From Ignavibacteriota bacterium (GTDB lineage: Bacteria > Bacteroidota > Ignavibacteria > Ignavibacteriales > Melioribacteraceae): 64,000 bases of DNA. The DNA lies in contig JABFGH010000003.1 of NCBI GenBank assembly GCA_013112585.1, positions 1 to 64,000 on the forward strand. Direction: 5' to 3'. Shown here piece by piece: positions 59,625 to 64,000 of the stretch. Made by a program: the position numbers and the translations under genes. A model generated the notes under the pieces. It made no database searches and was not told the origin of the DNA. It saw nothing but the letters and a program-made list of their open reading frames with translations. Numbering within the stretch: position 1 is the stretch's first letter; each line of letters starts with the position of its first letter.

Positions 59625-59903
59625 TCAAATACTATGTCTAAGTTCACTATCACTTCTTTCCTTTAAAATTATTTTTATTAAAGATTGATAGGGGACATCA
59701 CGCTTATTAGCAATTATTTTTATATCATTTAATAAAAACTCCGGCAGCCTTAAAGAAATAGTTTTAGTTGAAGGCTTTAATTTTGGGAATGACACTGATT
59801 TCGAAGACTTCCAATCTAAATAATCAGTTGAATCATTTTTTGACCAGAATTCTCTTTCTTCATTTTCAGTATTAAGTTTCGGTATTTTTTTTAGTTTCTT
59901 CAT
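59625..59903 (-). CDS. CopG/BrnA-like antitoxin
   Basis: 92 residues. The C-terminal half is a ribbon-helix-helix of the CopG/BrnA kind: KTISLRLPEFLLNDIKIIAN, KRDVPYQSLIKIIL. The N-terminal half is acidic and Trp-rich (REFWSKNDSTDYLDWKSSKS), as in BrnA-type partner-binding segments. No BrnT-like toxin frame is next to it; its upstream neighbour is the HigBA pair 49 bases away. It could be an orphan or part of a three-gene module. Confidence 0.75.
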   Translation of the reverse strand: MKKLKKIPKLNTENEEREFWSKNDSTDYLDWKSSKSVSFPKLKPSTKTISLRLPEFLLNDIKIIANKRDVPYQSLIKIILKERSDSELRHSI

Positions 59904-59952
59904 AGCAAGTTTTTTGTAATAGTCTTATTTCTAATATGTTACTCATATAATA

Positions 59953-60372
59953 TCACTTATTCTCAATAAACACAGAAGGGGAAACAGAAAACATTTTACT
60001 AAGAATTACTACCTGCCTCAAATTTAGCTTTCTTTTCCCATTTATAATTTCTGAAACAACACCTTGACTTCCAATCTCACTTAAATCACTTTGCTTCAAT
60101 CCATGTTCTTCTAAAAGAAATTTTAATACCCCAATTGGGTCGCCGGCTGGCTCTTCAATTTTTCTATCTTCATAATCTTTTACTAAAGTTCCAAGAGTAT
60201 CAATTAATGATTCCTTAACCGGATCACTTTTATCACTTACTTCATCAATTAATTGATCCAGCATTCTCACCGTTCTTTTATATTGCCGTTCAGTATGAAT
60301 TGTTGACACAACTTTTGAAACTGTCTGCCAAACTTTAATTGTTCTTCTTATTTCATTTTTTTCTTTTATCAT
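59953..60372 (-). CDS. HigA-like antitoxin, helix-turn-helix
   Basis: 139 residues from the ATG at 60372, or 145 from an ATG at 60390 that overlaps the toxin gene. The C-terminal helix-turn-helix is IGVLKFLLEEHGLKQSDLSE, IGSQGVVSEIINGKRKLNLR. The N-terminal half is helical and charged, including a segment (LDQLIDEVSDKSDPVKESL) typical of HigA antitoxins. It neutralises the toxin encoded upstream and represses the operon. The order toxin before antitoxin is the HigBA arrangement. Confidence 0.85.
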   Translation of the reverse strand: MIKEKNEIRRTIKVWQTVSKVVSTIHTERQYKRTVRMLDQLIDEVSDKSDPVKESLIDTLGTLVKDYEDRKIEEPAGDPIGVLKFLLEEHGLKQSDLSEIGSQGVVSEIINGKRKLNLRQVVILSKMFSVSPSVFIENK

Positions 60373-60377
60373 TATTT

Positions 60378-60665
60378 TTATTCCTTCCATTTTCCTTTAT
60401 CATATTCTTTGTGTGATAAAATATGCCGGATATAAATTCGTTTTGCATGGTAAACTATATAAGCAATTAGTCGATATTTATTACCTCCGATATTAAATAC
60501 CGTAAATTTTCCAACTTGATCCGCTTTGGGAAAAGTTTTTCTTAACTCCGAAAATGAACTATAATTACTCTGTTTAACAATGCGGTACCATCTGTCTAAT
60601 GGCTCCTGTGAATCGGGATGTTTTTTGCTGAACTCTAATAACCGTTTACGGGAGATAATATGCAT
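60378..60665 (-). CDS. HigB-like toxin (mRNA interferase family)
   Basis: 95 residues, RelE/ParE-like HigB. MHIISRKRLLEFSKKHPDSQ, the domain centre FPKADQVGKFTVFNIGGNKY, RLIAYIVYHAKRIYIRHILS with the basic/His active residues, and HKEYDKGKWKE at the C-terminus all match the family. It cleaves mRNA on ribosomes when free of HigA. The gene is followed directly by the antitoxin, with start/stop overlap or a five-base gap depending on which antitoxin ATG is used. Confidence 0.9.
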   Translation of the reverse strand: MHIISRKRLLEFSKKHPDSQEPLDRWYRIVKQSNYSSFSELRKTFPKADQVGKFTVFNIGGNKYRLIAYIVYHAKRIYIRHILSHKEYDKGKWKE

Positions 60666-60836: not shown

Positions 60837-61871
60837 TTATGTATTTCCGTTCACATAGTCTTGCAATATTTTCCTAGCAGTTTGTTCTGCTTTAGTTTTG
60901 CTTGCATTATAAAGTGATTGTGAATTATATTGTCGAAGATTATCAATATCTCTGCCTTTACGAAACCTTACATTCCATTTACCATTATTTCCTTCAAATA
61001 AAGAAACACTAATATTCATATCTCCTTTTATAGCATACCACCTTATTCCATTAGATATTTTTCTTTCATCCCAATCTACTTCAACTGTTAGTCTTTCAAG
61101 TGAGTGACGCATTTCAAGAGCAGTTTGATAACGCTCTTTTTTATTTATATTGAGCGCCTTGTTGATAAGTAATCTGAAAGACCTTGGAATAAAAAAGCGA
61201 TAACTAGTTCGGTCAGGAAATGTCCCCGCTATAGTTCTGTCCCTTACTTCACTAAACGGAACGTTGGAAATATAGCTATCCCCATTTACCAAGCGATAAA
61301 GAGTTGCCCCACAAGCATAAATATCTGACTGAGCTGAAAATTTTTCAAAGGATGTTACTTCGGGAGCCAAATGTAAAACATATTGGTAATCTTTTATTGA
61401 GGATAAATCAAGAGCGGCAATACTTGGCAAGGCAAGTCCAAAATCTGAAAGTTTGCCTTCAGATGCATTTCCAATCATTATGTTTGCAGGTTTAATATCT
61501 CTATGAATTATAGCTTTTGAATGAGAATATTCTAGGGCTCTTAAAACATCAATCATAAGCTTCTTAGCACGTGAAAGTTTTACATATGCCCCCTTTACTT
61601 CATCTTCTAAACTTCCATTTTTAAGATATTCCATTTTAACATAAATTCTATCATCGTTCATTGCGCCGGTATCAAGTACTTTAACAATATTTGGATGCTC
61701 AGTTAATTGTAGAGTTTGGGCTTCGGAATAAAAATTATTTTGGTCTATGACTTTATCTTTAGGAATAAGTTTGACCGCACATTCAGAATCCAAACCAATG
61801 TCAACGGCTCTCCATACTTCACCGAAATGCCCAGAACCAAGTCTATCTAAAAAATCAAAGGAAACAGCCAT
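60837..61871 (-). CDS. Serine/threonine protein kinase with C-terminal domain
   Basis: 344 residues from the ATG at 61871 (a TTG at 61889 would overlap the upstream gene). Kinase domain in the first 260: LGSGHFGEVWRAVD, ECAVKLIPKD, catalytic HRDIKPANIMIGNA, SDFGLALPSI, APEVTSFEKFSAQSDIYACG. It lacks a transmembrane segment, unlike most bacterial PASTA kinases. The remaining 80 residues (WDERKISNGIRWYAIKG, ISVSLFEGNNGKWNVRFRKG, then a helix) form a small unrecognised domain. It is two bases downstream of the RNase H-fold gene stop, so the pair is co-translated. Substrate unknown. Confidence 0.9.
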   Translation of the reverse strand: MAVSFDFLDRLGSGHFGEVWRAVDIGLDSECAVKLIPKDKVIDQNNFYSEAQTLQLTEHPNIVKVLDTGAMNDDRIYVKMEYLKNGSLEDEVKGAYVKLSRAKKLMIDVLRALEYSHSKAIIHRDIKPANIMIGNASEGKLSDFGLALPSIAALDLSSIKDYQYVLHLAPEVTSFEKFSAQSDIYACGATLYRLVNGDSYISNVPFSEVRDRTIAGTFPDRTSYRFFIPRSFRLLINKALNINKKERYQTALEMRHSLERLTVEVDWDERKISNGIRWYAIKGDMNISVSLFEGNNGKWNVRFRKGRDIDNLRQYNSQSLYNASKTKAEQTARKILQDYVNGNT

Positions 61872-61873
61872 AA

Positions 61874-62329
61874 CTATAAACAACTCCAAGCAACTAAAAT
61901 TGCTTCATTTATTTTCTCAGATGTTTTCGCATAGTTTACAACTGATGTTATATCAATATCAGTCACCAAATATTTTGCCTTTCCTTTACAACCCAAATCT
62001 TTAGCAATAGTTGCTTTAACTTTTCTAAAAACATTTTCATTTCCTTTGTTAGCTCCGAGAAGAAAAACGATTGCCTCATTTTCAGCACGACTTGTATAGA
62101 GTTTTCCTTTTTGGGCCATAGCTTCTGCACCCTTAATTCCCCATTTATCAATTTTGTACTTTCTGGATAACTCATCAAGTTCTTGATAAAACCACTTTAA
62201 TTCAGCTGGTCTTGAAAAACCATTTGGGAAGTGAATCGTACCAGAATCAACTAAAACTGGAGAGTTTTTATTACCATCAACGATTGCAAAAGAATAATCT
62301 TTGTTACTACACCTTAATCCAATGACCAT
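61874..62329 (-). CDS. Small RNase H-fold (RuvC/DUF3010-like) protein, kinase partner
   Basis: 151 residues. It resembles a RuvC/RNase H fold: first strand pair MVIGLRCSNKDYSFAIVDG, a middle KWGIKGAEAMAQKGKLYTS, and a last helix SEKINEAILVAWSCL. The usual catalytic Asp after the first Gly is replaced by Leu-Arg-Cys and the last Asp by Asn-Glu, so it may be inactive as a nuclease; Glu in GAE and NEAI are retained. The gene comes first, with the kinase right after. I do not know this pair from a named system. The fold call is by eye. Confidence 0.6.
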   Translation of the reverse strand: MVIGLRCSNKDYSFAIVDGNKNSPVLVDSGTIHFPNGFSRPAELKWFYQELDELSRKYKIDKWGIKGAEAMAQKGKLYTSRAENEAIVFLLGANKGNENVFRKVKATIAKDLGCKGKAKYLVTDIDITSVVNYAKTSEKINEAILVAWSCL

Positions 62330-62349
62330 AATAACTCCATTTGATAACG

Positions 62350-62537
62350 CATAACGGCGTCGTTGCTAAAGCGCAGCCCATAACAACACTGCCATATTGA
62401 TTATTAAAATTTATATTTACAAAAAACTTACACACATTACAAAAGCTAAACAGCAATGCCGAAGCGGTACTGTAAACCTCAGAATTTCAAAATGGTGCAA
62501 GCGTAAACGCTGGCGCTTTGAGCAACTGGTTATAAGC
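62350..62537. other. attC-like inverted repeat between accessory genes
   Basis: GCATAACGGCG, then TCGTTGCTAAAGCGC near 62350-62374 is matched in reverse by GCGCTTTGAGCAAC, then TGGTTATAAGC at 62513-62537. The ends thus pair as GTTGCT-AAAGCGC with GCGCTTT-GAGCAAC and carry the GTTAT/ATAAC core words of integron attC sites. A second CCATAACAAC lies at 62379. The span (188 bases) is longer than a usual attC and no integrase is seen, so the identity is uncertain. The region is richer in G and C than its neighbours. Confidence 0.45.
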
Positions 62538-62552
62538 GATTTATTATTTTAC

Positions 62553-64000
62553 TCAAGTCAAATTTTTAATTTCTAATATTTCAACATACTTATCCAAATT
62601 ACCTACTTTAACAGTTTCACCAACTGATTTTTCTTTCAAGGAAATTGCTAATGGTGATTGTAAACTAATTTCTTTAATACCATTTGACATATCATAATTT
62701 TTGCGAACATTTGTAACCAACCGCACGGTAATATCCTTCCCCGAATTTATATACTTAACTTTCACTATACTATTTGACATTACGATATCTTTACGCTGTA
62801 TTGGTAGCACAATTTTCTTTTCACTAATCGCTTCCACAGTTTCTTTCAAATCTTTTTGAAGACTCGGTGCTACTTTCTTATCTTCATTCTCAATTATCGA
62901 AATATTATCAGTAAATGCTAATGCAATATCGGATTTCTCTTTAATTTCTGATTTGCCATTATTCTCAATGTTTTTAATAAATTCAACTAATATTTTTGTT
63001 TCTCTTTTGGGATTTCTCCACCAATTTGTGCTCCATATTCTATGAAAAACAAAACCGTGTCCTTCAAGTATTTTTTGTCTATGTCTGTCATATAAATATG
63101 CTTCTTGACTTGAGTGATATGTTGCTCCATCACATTCAATTGCTATTTTGGGAACTCCAATAATTTTTGAATCATAAACTAAATCAATTCTAAATCCTGC
63201 AAATTGCAATTGTGGAATTATTTTAGTTTCATCAAAATGGTCAGTTAATACTTCATAGACTTCTTCTTCAAATGGAGATTCAAGGTCTTCGTTTAAAATA
63301 CCGAGTGTAGAACTTTTAGTTGTATTGTCAGAGAGTGTATTTAGAATTGCTAATCTTTGTTCTTTGTCATTATCGCTCACAGATTTACAATAAGCTAAAT
63401 AAGCAAAGAAAACAGCTCGTCTATTATTTGAATCTTCGATTGATAAATATTCTTTATAGTTTAGAAATACTTCCTCTGGAATAGAAGAACATACATATAT
63501 TTTATATTTTGCTCTTGTTATAATTACATTTAATAATTTGTATCCTTTTTGATGATTTATTGAGCCAAAACGATGTGCAAACTTACCGTCTTTATTTATG
63601 CCATAAGTCGTGGTTAAAATTATTACATCTCGTTCATCTCCTTGAATATTTTCCAAGTTTTTAACGAATAAGCCATTCTCTTCAAGTTCCAATATCTTTT
63701 CATTGAACTCCTCATAGCTATCAAATTTACGCCTTTCGTTAATTTTACTTAAAATAAGGTTTCGCTGATGAATATTAAATGTAGCAATACCAACAGATGG
63801 ATATTCACCATTTGGTAAACGATTAATATTATTTTCTATGATAGACAAAACAGTTTCTGCTTCAACTTCATTTGTGTGGTTAGAATAAGTGCCATTTACT
63901 TGAATATATTTGATTGGAGTATATTCAAATCCATTTGGTAAAGGTTTTAATCTTTGATTGTAAAAAGCATAATTTGAAAAGTCAATTAAATAAGGATGTC
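62553..64000 (-). CDS. SF1 helicase-nuclease with GreA/GreB-like end (partial, cut by window edge)
   Basis: The frame is open to the window edge at 64000, so about 482 C-terminal residues of a longer protein are seen. Parts in order: helicase motif IV, HPYLIDFSNYAFYNQRLKPL; motif V, LENIQGDERDVIILTTTYG; motif VI, KLLNVIITRAKYKIYV; then a MTES_1575/Vsr-like nuclease domain, FRIDLVYDSK, IAIECDGATYHSSQEA, YDRHRQKILEGHGFVFHRIW; then a GreA/GreB-like domain, VKVKYINSGKDITVRLV, EISLQSPLAISLKEKSVGE. SF1-MTES_1575 proteins often carry an N-terminal DUF4011 and are found in defence islands. The GreA-like tail is the unusual part. The N-terminus is missing. Confidence 0.88.
   Translation of the reverse strand, partial: HPYLIDFSNYAFYNQRLKPLPNGFEYTPIKYIQVNGTYSNHTNEVEAETVLSIIENNINRLPNGEYPSVGIATFNIHQRNLILSKINERRKFDSYEEFNEKILELEENGLFVKNLENIQGDERDVIILTTTYGINKDGKFAHRFGSINHQKGYKLLNVIITRAKYKIYVCSSIPEEVFLNYKEYLSIEDSNNRRAVFFAYLAYCKSVSDNDKEQRLAILNTLSDNTTKSSTLGILNEDLESPFEEEVYEVLTDHFDETKIIPQLQFAGFRIDLVYDSKIIGVPKIAIECDGATYHSSQEAYLYDRHRQKILEGHGFVFHRIWSTNWWRNPKRETKILVEFIKNIENNGKSEIKEKSDIALAFTDNISIIENEDKKVAPSLQKDLKETVEAISEKKIVLPIQRKDIVMSNSIVKVKYINSGKDITVRLVTNVRKNYDMSNGIKEISLQSPLAISLKEKSVGETVKVGNLDKYVEILEIKNLT

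Follow-up and report, generated by a model that had tools for sequence, protein, structure and literature searches.

A mobile SF1B helicase-nuclease carries a GreA/GreB-type tail that differs in origin from its body

The questions raised by this locus are what a domain of the GreA/GreB type does at the end of a helicase-nuclease and where that domain came from. The protein lies at the end of the window, i.e. the 64,000-nucleotide stretch of contig JABFGH010000003.1 (Ignavibacteriota bacterium, Melioribacteraceae, GCA_013112585.1) that was analysed. A first-pass annotation had reported helicase motifs V and VI, a nuclease with IECDG and a tail segment here, and all of them were found at those sites in the full protein. 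The complete gene (C3:62553-66941, minus strand) extends beyond the window end and encodes 1462 aa with, from N- to C-terminus, DUF4011, an Upf1/Sen1-type SF1B helicase, an MTES_1575 (Vsr-like) nuclease and a GreA/GreB C-terminal domain. The features were placed as follows.

62553..64000, minus strand: C-terminal 481 aa of the SF1B helicase / MTES_1575 nuclease / Gre-tail protein (1462 aa in full)
63627..63644, minus strand: helicase motif V, QGDERD, residues 1100-1105
63492..63530, minus strand: helicase motif VI, NVIITRAKYKIYV, residues 1138-1150
62976..63272, minus strand: MTES_1575 Vsr-like PD-(D/E)xK nuclease, residues 1224-1322 (Pfam, 94.6 bits, cut-off 38.2)
62796..62966, minus strand: variable linker, residues 1326-1382, region of the mosaic break
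62556..62795, minus strand: GreA/GreB C-terminal-type tail, residues 1383-1462, with the IS..SPL motif at 1425-1431
62345..62540, minus strand: imperfect palindrome of attC-like form immediately after the helicase gene, CGCTTATAACCAGTTGCTCAAAGCGC ... GCGCTTTAGCAACGACGCCGTTATGCG, present once in the genome
Residues 85-170: DUF4011 (Pfam, 24.4 bits, cut-off 22.2)
Residues 299-922: AAA_11 (Pfam)
Residues 1020-1151: AAA_12 (Pfam)
Residues 1383-1459: GreA_GreB C-term, PF01272 (Pfam, 32.9 bits, cut-off 26.9)

Motif V continues as QGDERDVII (residues 1100-1108), IECDG of the nuclease occupies residues 1268-1272 and EISLQSPLAISL of the Gre tail residues 1424-1435. In the relatives, the Walker A and DEASQ motifs and motifs V and VI were invariant, including Q, G, D, E and the last D of motif V and R1143 of motif VI (40 relatives each), and the nuclease residues D1253, E1269, D1271 and H1276 were invariant as well; both enzyme parts therefore look active. 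By sequence comparison the helicase resembled SMUBP-2, Sen1 and Nam7/Upf1. In Foldseek searches with the predicted model of the whole protein, which was of low confidence (pTM 0.35), the helicase matched Senataxin, Aquarius, Ighmbp2 and the Sen1-RNA polymerase II complex. The nuclease region matched the homing endonuclease I-Bth0305I (3r3p) in Foldseek. A long helical insert was observed in the first helicase lobe at residues 481-800 (P0001; L002:4542-5501, minus strand). It was the most divergent and most length-variable part of the family, with a looser dN/dS (0.08-0.24 in ten Bacteroidota pairs) than the tail, and is possibly a sensing part.

The tail had been proposed to adopt the GreA/GreB C-terminal fold, and this was confirmed by the PF01272 match above the gathering cut-off (37-38 bits, 38.2, when the window tail was scanned alone), by matches throughout the family and by predicted structure. 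All 49 family tails matched PF01272 on their own (E 0.001; best 9e-14), and a search of the PDB with a profile of the family tails hit Gfh1 (1.4e-4). For the C-terminus as modelled by AlphaFold2 (mean pLDDT 71; tail blocks 59-88), the first matches were Rnk (3bmb), GreA and Gfh1 (E 4e-5 to 2e-3), all of them proteins that bind RNA polymerase. In the predicted model a disordered linker and one short helix lie ahead of the tail; for the Gre N-terminal coiled coil with its acidic tip, no GreA N-terminal Pfam match was obtained in the protein.

Relatives were sampled from one genome per species. Across 84,980 species, relatives were encoded at 54 loci, almost all of them in Bacteroidota, and the Gre tail was present in 49 of the 50 complete ones (Bacteroidota and Ignavibacteriota, window copy included). 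The tail is under strong purifying selection: its dN/dS was 0.00-0.11 in ten close Bacteroidota pairs, near that of the enzyme core (0.01-0.06). The SPL motif was mostly kept (P1430 in 46/49 tails, L1431 in 47/49). In our own alignment S121 and S124 of the IS..SP motif of E. coli GreA correspond to residues 1426 and 1429, and residue 1426, the first Gre-motif serine, was N or Y in most relatives. Relatives elsewhere differ at the C-terminus: L021 and L022 end in DUF3320, in line with the earlier statement that related helicases commonly do so, L079-L085 stop after the nuclease, and the Gre-like tails of L077 (with an inserted segment) and L078 were recognisable by alignment only. Because relatives vary at exactly the tail site, the C-terminal tail is a changeable module on a constant motor-nuclease. 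This architecture is genuine and conserved, and we could find no earlier description of it. The only complete close relative without a Gre tail, L025:10001-14131 (1376 aa), does not extend past the linker.

The main new result is that the Gre tail was exchanged in a phylum-linked manner. The body of the window protein was 94-99% identical, and its helicase-nuclease 96-99%, to two Flavobacteriaceae copies (L023 and L024), apart from the insert 481-800, which was 92% and 75% identical to them and is itself mosaic (75% to L024, flanks 95-98%). The tail shared 52-53% identity with the tails of L023 and L024, and its nearest counterpart (65%) was that of L034 from genome G036, a member of the same family, Melioribacteraceae, as the window genome. 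The body of L034 was 95% identical to L033 (Marinilabiliaceae). In the tail tree the window copy grouped with L034 (support 100/99) and its grouping with L023(+L024) was rejected (p 0.005-0.008), while in the body tree it grouped with Flavobacteriaceae and its grouping with L034 was rejected (p 3e-6). Thus two bodies of different origin carry one Melioribacteraceae-type tail. DNA identity dropped near codon 1314 in the window copy and near codon 1354 in L034. Between the window copy and L023, dS was 0.21 in the body and 1.29 in the tail; since synonymous divergence jumps in the tail, the tail block was exchanged and is not merely fast-evolving, and fast adaptive change was thereby rejected. 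Among the 62 close pairs (bodies at least 90% alike), tails were 67-100% alike in the 59 pairs within Bacteroidota and 45-54% alike in the three that cross phyla, and the mosaic, based on two phylum-crossing copies only, was seen in these three alone. Host GreA was rejected as tail donor, as the tail profile found just the two helicase copies among the 79 genomes of the family; the host genome encodes two GreA-sized and two Rnk-sized PF01272 proteins.

Would such an exchange have to do with the host RNA polymerase? Gre factors contact the beta-prime rim helices with their globular domain, the GreA substitution S121P loses RNA-polymerase binding, and in E. coli specific binding needs both Gre domains (PMC7527559). 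SF1 motors docked on RNA polymerase have precedents: the C-terminal tail of PcrA/UvrD binds it directly (PMC3797733), and HelD uses a Gre-like arm (PMC7749165). The beta-prime rim tip was GLITDAERYNK in the window genome and mostly GLITNNERYNQ in Bacteroidota; given this difference between the host phyla, a tail that docks there would have to change as well. Among 46 hosts, body-corrected tail divergence followed host rpoC (r 0.35, p 0.0003), more weakly without the two Melioribacteraceae (r 0.13, p 0.048; isolates only, r 0.38, p 0.0003), which makes the tail-host correlation within Bacteroidota weak to moderate (r 0.13-0.38). A first Mantel test with 21 hosts had pointed to the tail alone as tracking the host RNA polymerase. 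This was rejected, as the N-terminal segment also trended weakly with host rpoC among the 46 hosts, and tail specificity within Bacteroidota is therefore not claimed. Because rpoC also stands in for host phylogeny, the correlation supports a host factor without proving that it is RNA polymerase. Indirect support for a tie between tail and RNA polymerase comes from homology, from the predicted fold, from the purifying selection on the tail and from its match to the host lineage. The domains, the intact catalytic motifs, the conservation of the tail under purifying selection and the mosaic with its host association are established.

The gene is sporadic and mobile. Any relative was found in 4/79 genomes of the family, the Gre-tailed form in 2/79, and the gene in 3/392 genomes of the phylum sample. 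The domain order was conserved in many genomes, and varied known or candidate defence genes lay near the homologues: the 106 proteins encoded there gave single strong matches to models of type I restriction, PDC-S06, PDC-S01, HEC-01, TmtA, DpdF, PsyrT and ZorB, a count made with no control set and in which several models may match one protein. No constant partner gene recurs beside the relatives, and the neighbouring STK, RuvC-like and HigBA genes were rejected as partners since they are not conserved next to relatives. A phage or plasmid origin was also rejected, as just distant relatives occurred on plasmids and in one phage record, and none in viral contigs.

In the window, an overlapping pair at 60837-62329 encodes a 151-aa weakly RuvC-like protein (E 0.0038), in which the first catalytic Asp is seemingly replaced, and a Ser/Thr kinase matching the PD-T4-6, MAD6 and MkoA models. 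The region 59625-60665 contains a HigB/HigA pair matching the PD-Lambda-2 A and B models, and a CopG antitoxin with no obvious toxin adjoining. Directly downstream of the second Melioribacteraceae copy, L020:668-1363 encodes a protein of 231 aa whose C-terminal end is cold-shock-like.

The fold of the attC-like element behind the helicase gene was no stronger than that of shuffles (z -0.61), and its pattern had zero matches in six genomes. An integron array was rejected, as neither an IntI above cut-off nor a second copy of the element was found in the genome. L034 carries a similar but diverged attC-like element at the same place, and L023/L024 do not. In Bacteroidota, an imperfect palindrome of about 90-150 bp was observed within about 20 bp of the helicase stop codon at 15 loci or more, and a related hairpin occurred upstream of the helicase. 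The palindrome also trails quite different genes, several apparently defence genes; read from their sequences, these were DNA methyltransferases, a large restriction enzyme, a type III-like helicase, AbiEi/AbiEii and a RhuM-like protein. Copies of the palindrome, behind the helicase or such other genes, include L026:11198-11350, L026:20109-20259, L124:2598-2746, L126:866-953, L128:2370-2457, L047:6151-6237 and L121:6602-6676. The palindromes look like a gene-cassette system moving single defence genes.

The first-pass interpretation was supported in part: the helicase-nuclease with a Gre domain held for many genomes, the suggested roles on R-loops and foreign DNA are conjectural, and the mosaic, the Sen1/Upf1-type helicase and the relation to Hhe and PDC-S37 were absent from it. 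The best reading, to which we give about an even chance, is a defence helicase-nuclease whose Gre-type tail is matched to the host and docks it on the RNA polymerase there. The gene would encode a stand-alone defence enzyme moving horizontally, in which the Upf1/Sen1-type 5'-3' SF1B helicase drives the Vsr-like nuclease. The Gre tail would dock the enzyme at the secondary-channel rim (beta-prime rim helices), the docked motor may work where polymerases transcribe invading DNA, with nascent RNA, R-loops or DNA as its substrate, and the nuclease would cut this DNA or RNA. As the tail must fit the host polymerase, we propose that it is exchanged for the version of the host lineage on crossing to a new phylum. 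We infer the RNA-polymerase binding, the anti-phage role, the substrate and the order of events. A fuller proposal is put forward tentatively, at somewhat less than an even chance: a transcription-coupled defence enzyme that rides the host RNA polymerase and destroys foreign DNA or RNA during transcription, with the tail as an exchangeable adaptor to the host, for which a lineage-matched version was substituted on at least two entries into Ignavibacteriota, and the fit to RNA polymerase setting the host range of the defence system.

The 3' end of the gene and the attC-like element next to it also belong to the exchanged block, so hitch-hiking of the tail is conceivable. The tail would then be a protein-binding module of FKBP-like type, no longer able to bind RNA polymerase and used for self-regulation, for dimerisation or to recognise a phage protein, and its exchange in Melioribacteraceae would have come with a lineage-specific 3' cassette end. 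The main argument is that behind both Melioribacteraceae copies lie attC-like elements that resemble each other (CGCTTATAACCAG...) and not the 3' element of Bacteroidota; the exchanged block begins in the linker and includes the stop codon, and position 1426 (GreA S121) is not conserved. However, all the best fold and profile matches are to Gre, Rnk and Gfh1 proteins, which bind RNA polymerase, the SPL motif is kept, and selection on the tail is strongly purifying, and we consider this explanation possible but rather unlikely. The mosaic itself could be thought an artefact of metagenome assembly or binning, as L023 and L024 are short contigs from metagenome bins. Yet the window copy has an uninterrupted ORF inside a 285-kb contig of a genome that is 99.97% complete, a second genome has the same tail type on a different body, L033 carries no MAG label, and the flanks of L023/L024 are of the same type as in cultured Flavobacteriaceae, so that an artefact is hardly credible.

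A role in genome maintenance associated with RNA polymerase, i.e. R-loop removal or clearing of stalled polymerases as by Sen1, HelD and UvrD, would make the gene accessory DNA that is not anti-phage. The Gre-type docking domain and a helicase fold nearest Senataxin, Sen1, Ighmbp2 and Aquarius agree with it, but the gene is mobile and as sporadic as counted above, its closest named families are defence proteins, an active nuclease would be unusual in housekeeping polymerase clearing, and the neighbours vary with defence genes among them; such a role is improbable.

Docking of a defence enzyme on RNA polymerase would bear on why many defence helicase-nucleases spare host DNA, which is often unexplained. 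The contrast between a body that crosses phyla and a Gre-type tail in step with the host lineage suggests RNA polymerase as the platform. If true, antiviral nucleases would be linked to the transcription machinery, and there would be a molecular reason why some defence genes work, or fail, after transfer to a new phylum.

Compared with known systems, the protein has the C-terminal FKBP-like domain with the IS..SP motif in common with GreA/GreB, Gfh1 and Rnk, but is without the Gre N-terminal coiled coil and acidic tip and is fused to a nuclease-helicase. HelD, PcrA/UvrD and Sen1 are also SF1 motors acting on RNA polymerase, and the HelD arm is Gre-like and enters the secondary channel, whereas their docking elements are not homologous to the Gre tail, and HelD and PcrA are UvrD-like SF1A enzymes. 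None of them is known to have a Vsr-type nuclease. No published Gre-tailed defence helicase was found in the open-access literature.

On the defence side, the helicase class SF1_Upf1 includes Hhe, MkoA and MkoC (PMC10925250). The Upf1-type SF1 helicase is shared with Mokosh MkoA (8.6e-17), but the kinase of the window is on a separate gene that is not conserved beside relatives, no Mokosh nuclease was found, and the Mokosh arrangement, in which MkoA combines kinase and helicase and has a partner gene, has no equivalent here, as no partner recurs. With the anti-phage protein ProA the protein shares helicase-nuclease homology (NCBIfam NF058533, 1.3e-132) at 443.9 bits against a cut-off of 1500, so it is not a member. 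The best PADLOC match was the single-gene defence candidate PDC-S37 (5.7e-145), across helicase and nuclease; the Gre tail alone had no match to this model, and its last ~130 positions have no counterpart in the window protein. The anti-phage protein Hhe was matched at 6e-85 and in NCBIfam (NF042953) at 358.6 bits, far below the curated cut-off of 2000. The window protein has a longer N-terminus than Hhe and its Gre tail lies outside the match, and the two share DUF4011, the Upf1-type SF1 helicase and a related C-terminal nuclease region, with 36% identity over residues 885-1311. As read from sequence, the helicase motifs and nuclease active site that mark the SF1_Upf1 helicase-Vsr nuclease class (Hhe and the candidate PDC-S37) appear intact in this protein.
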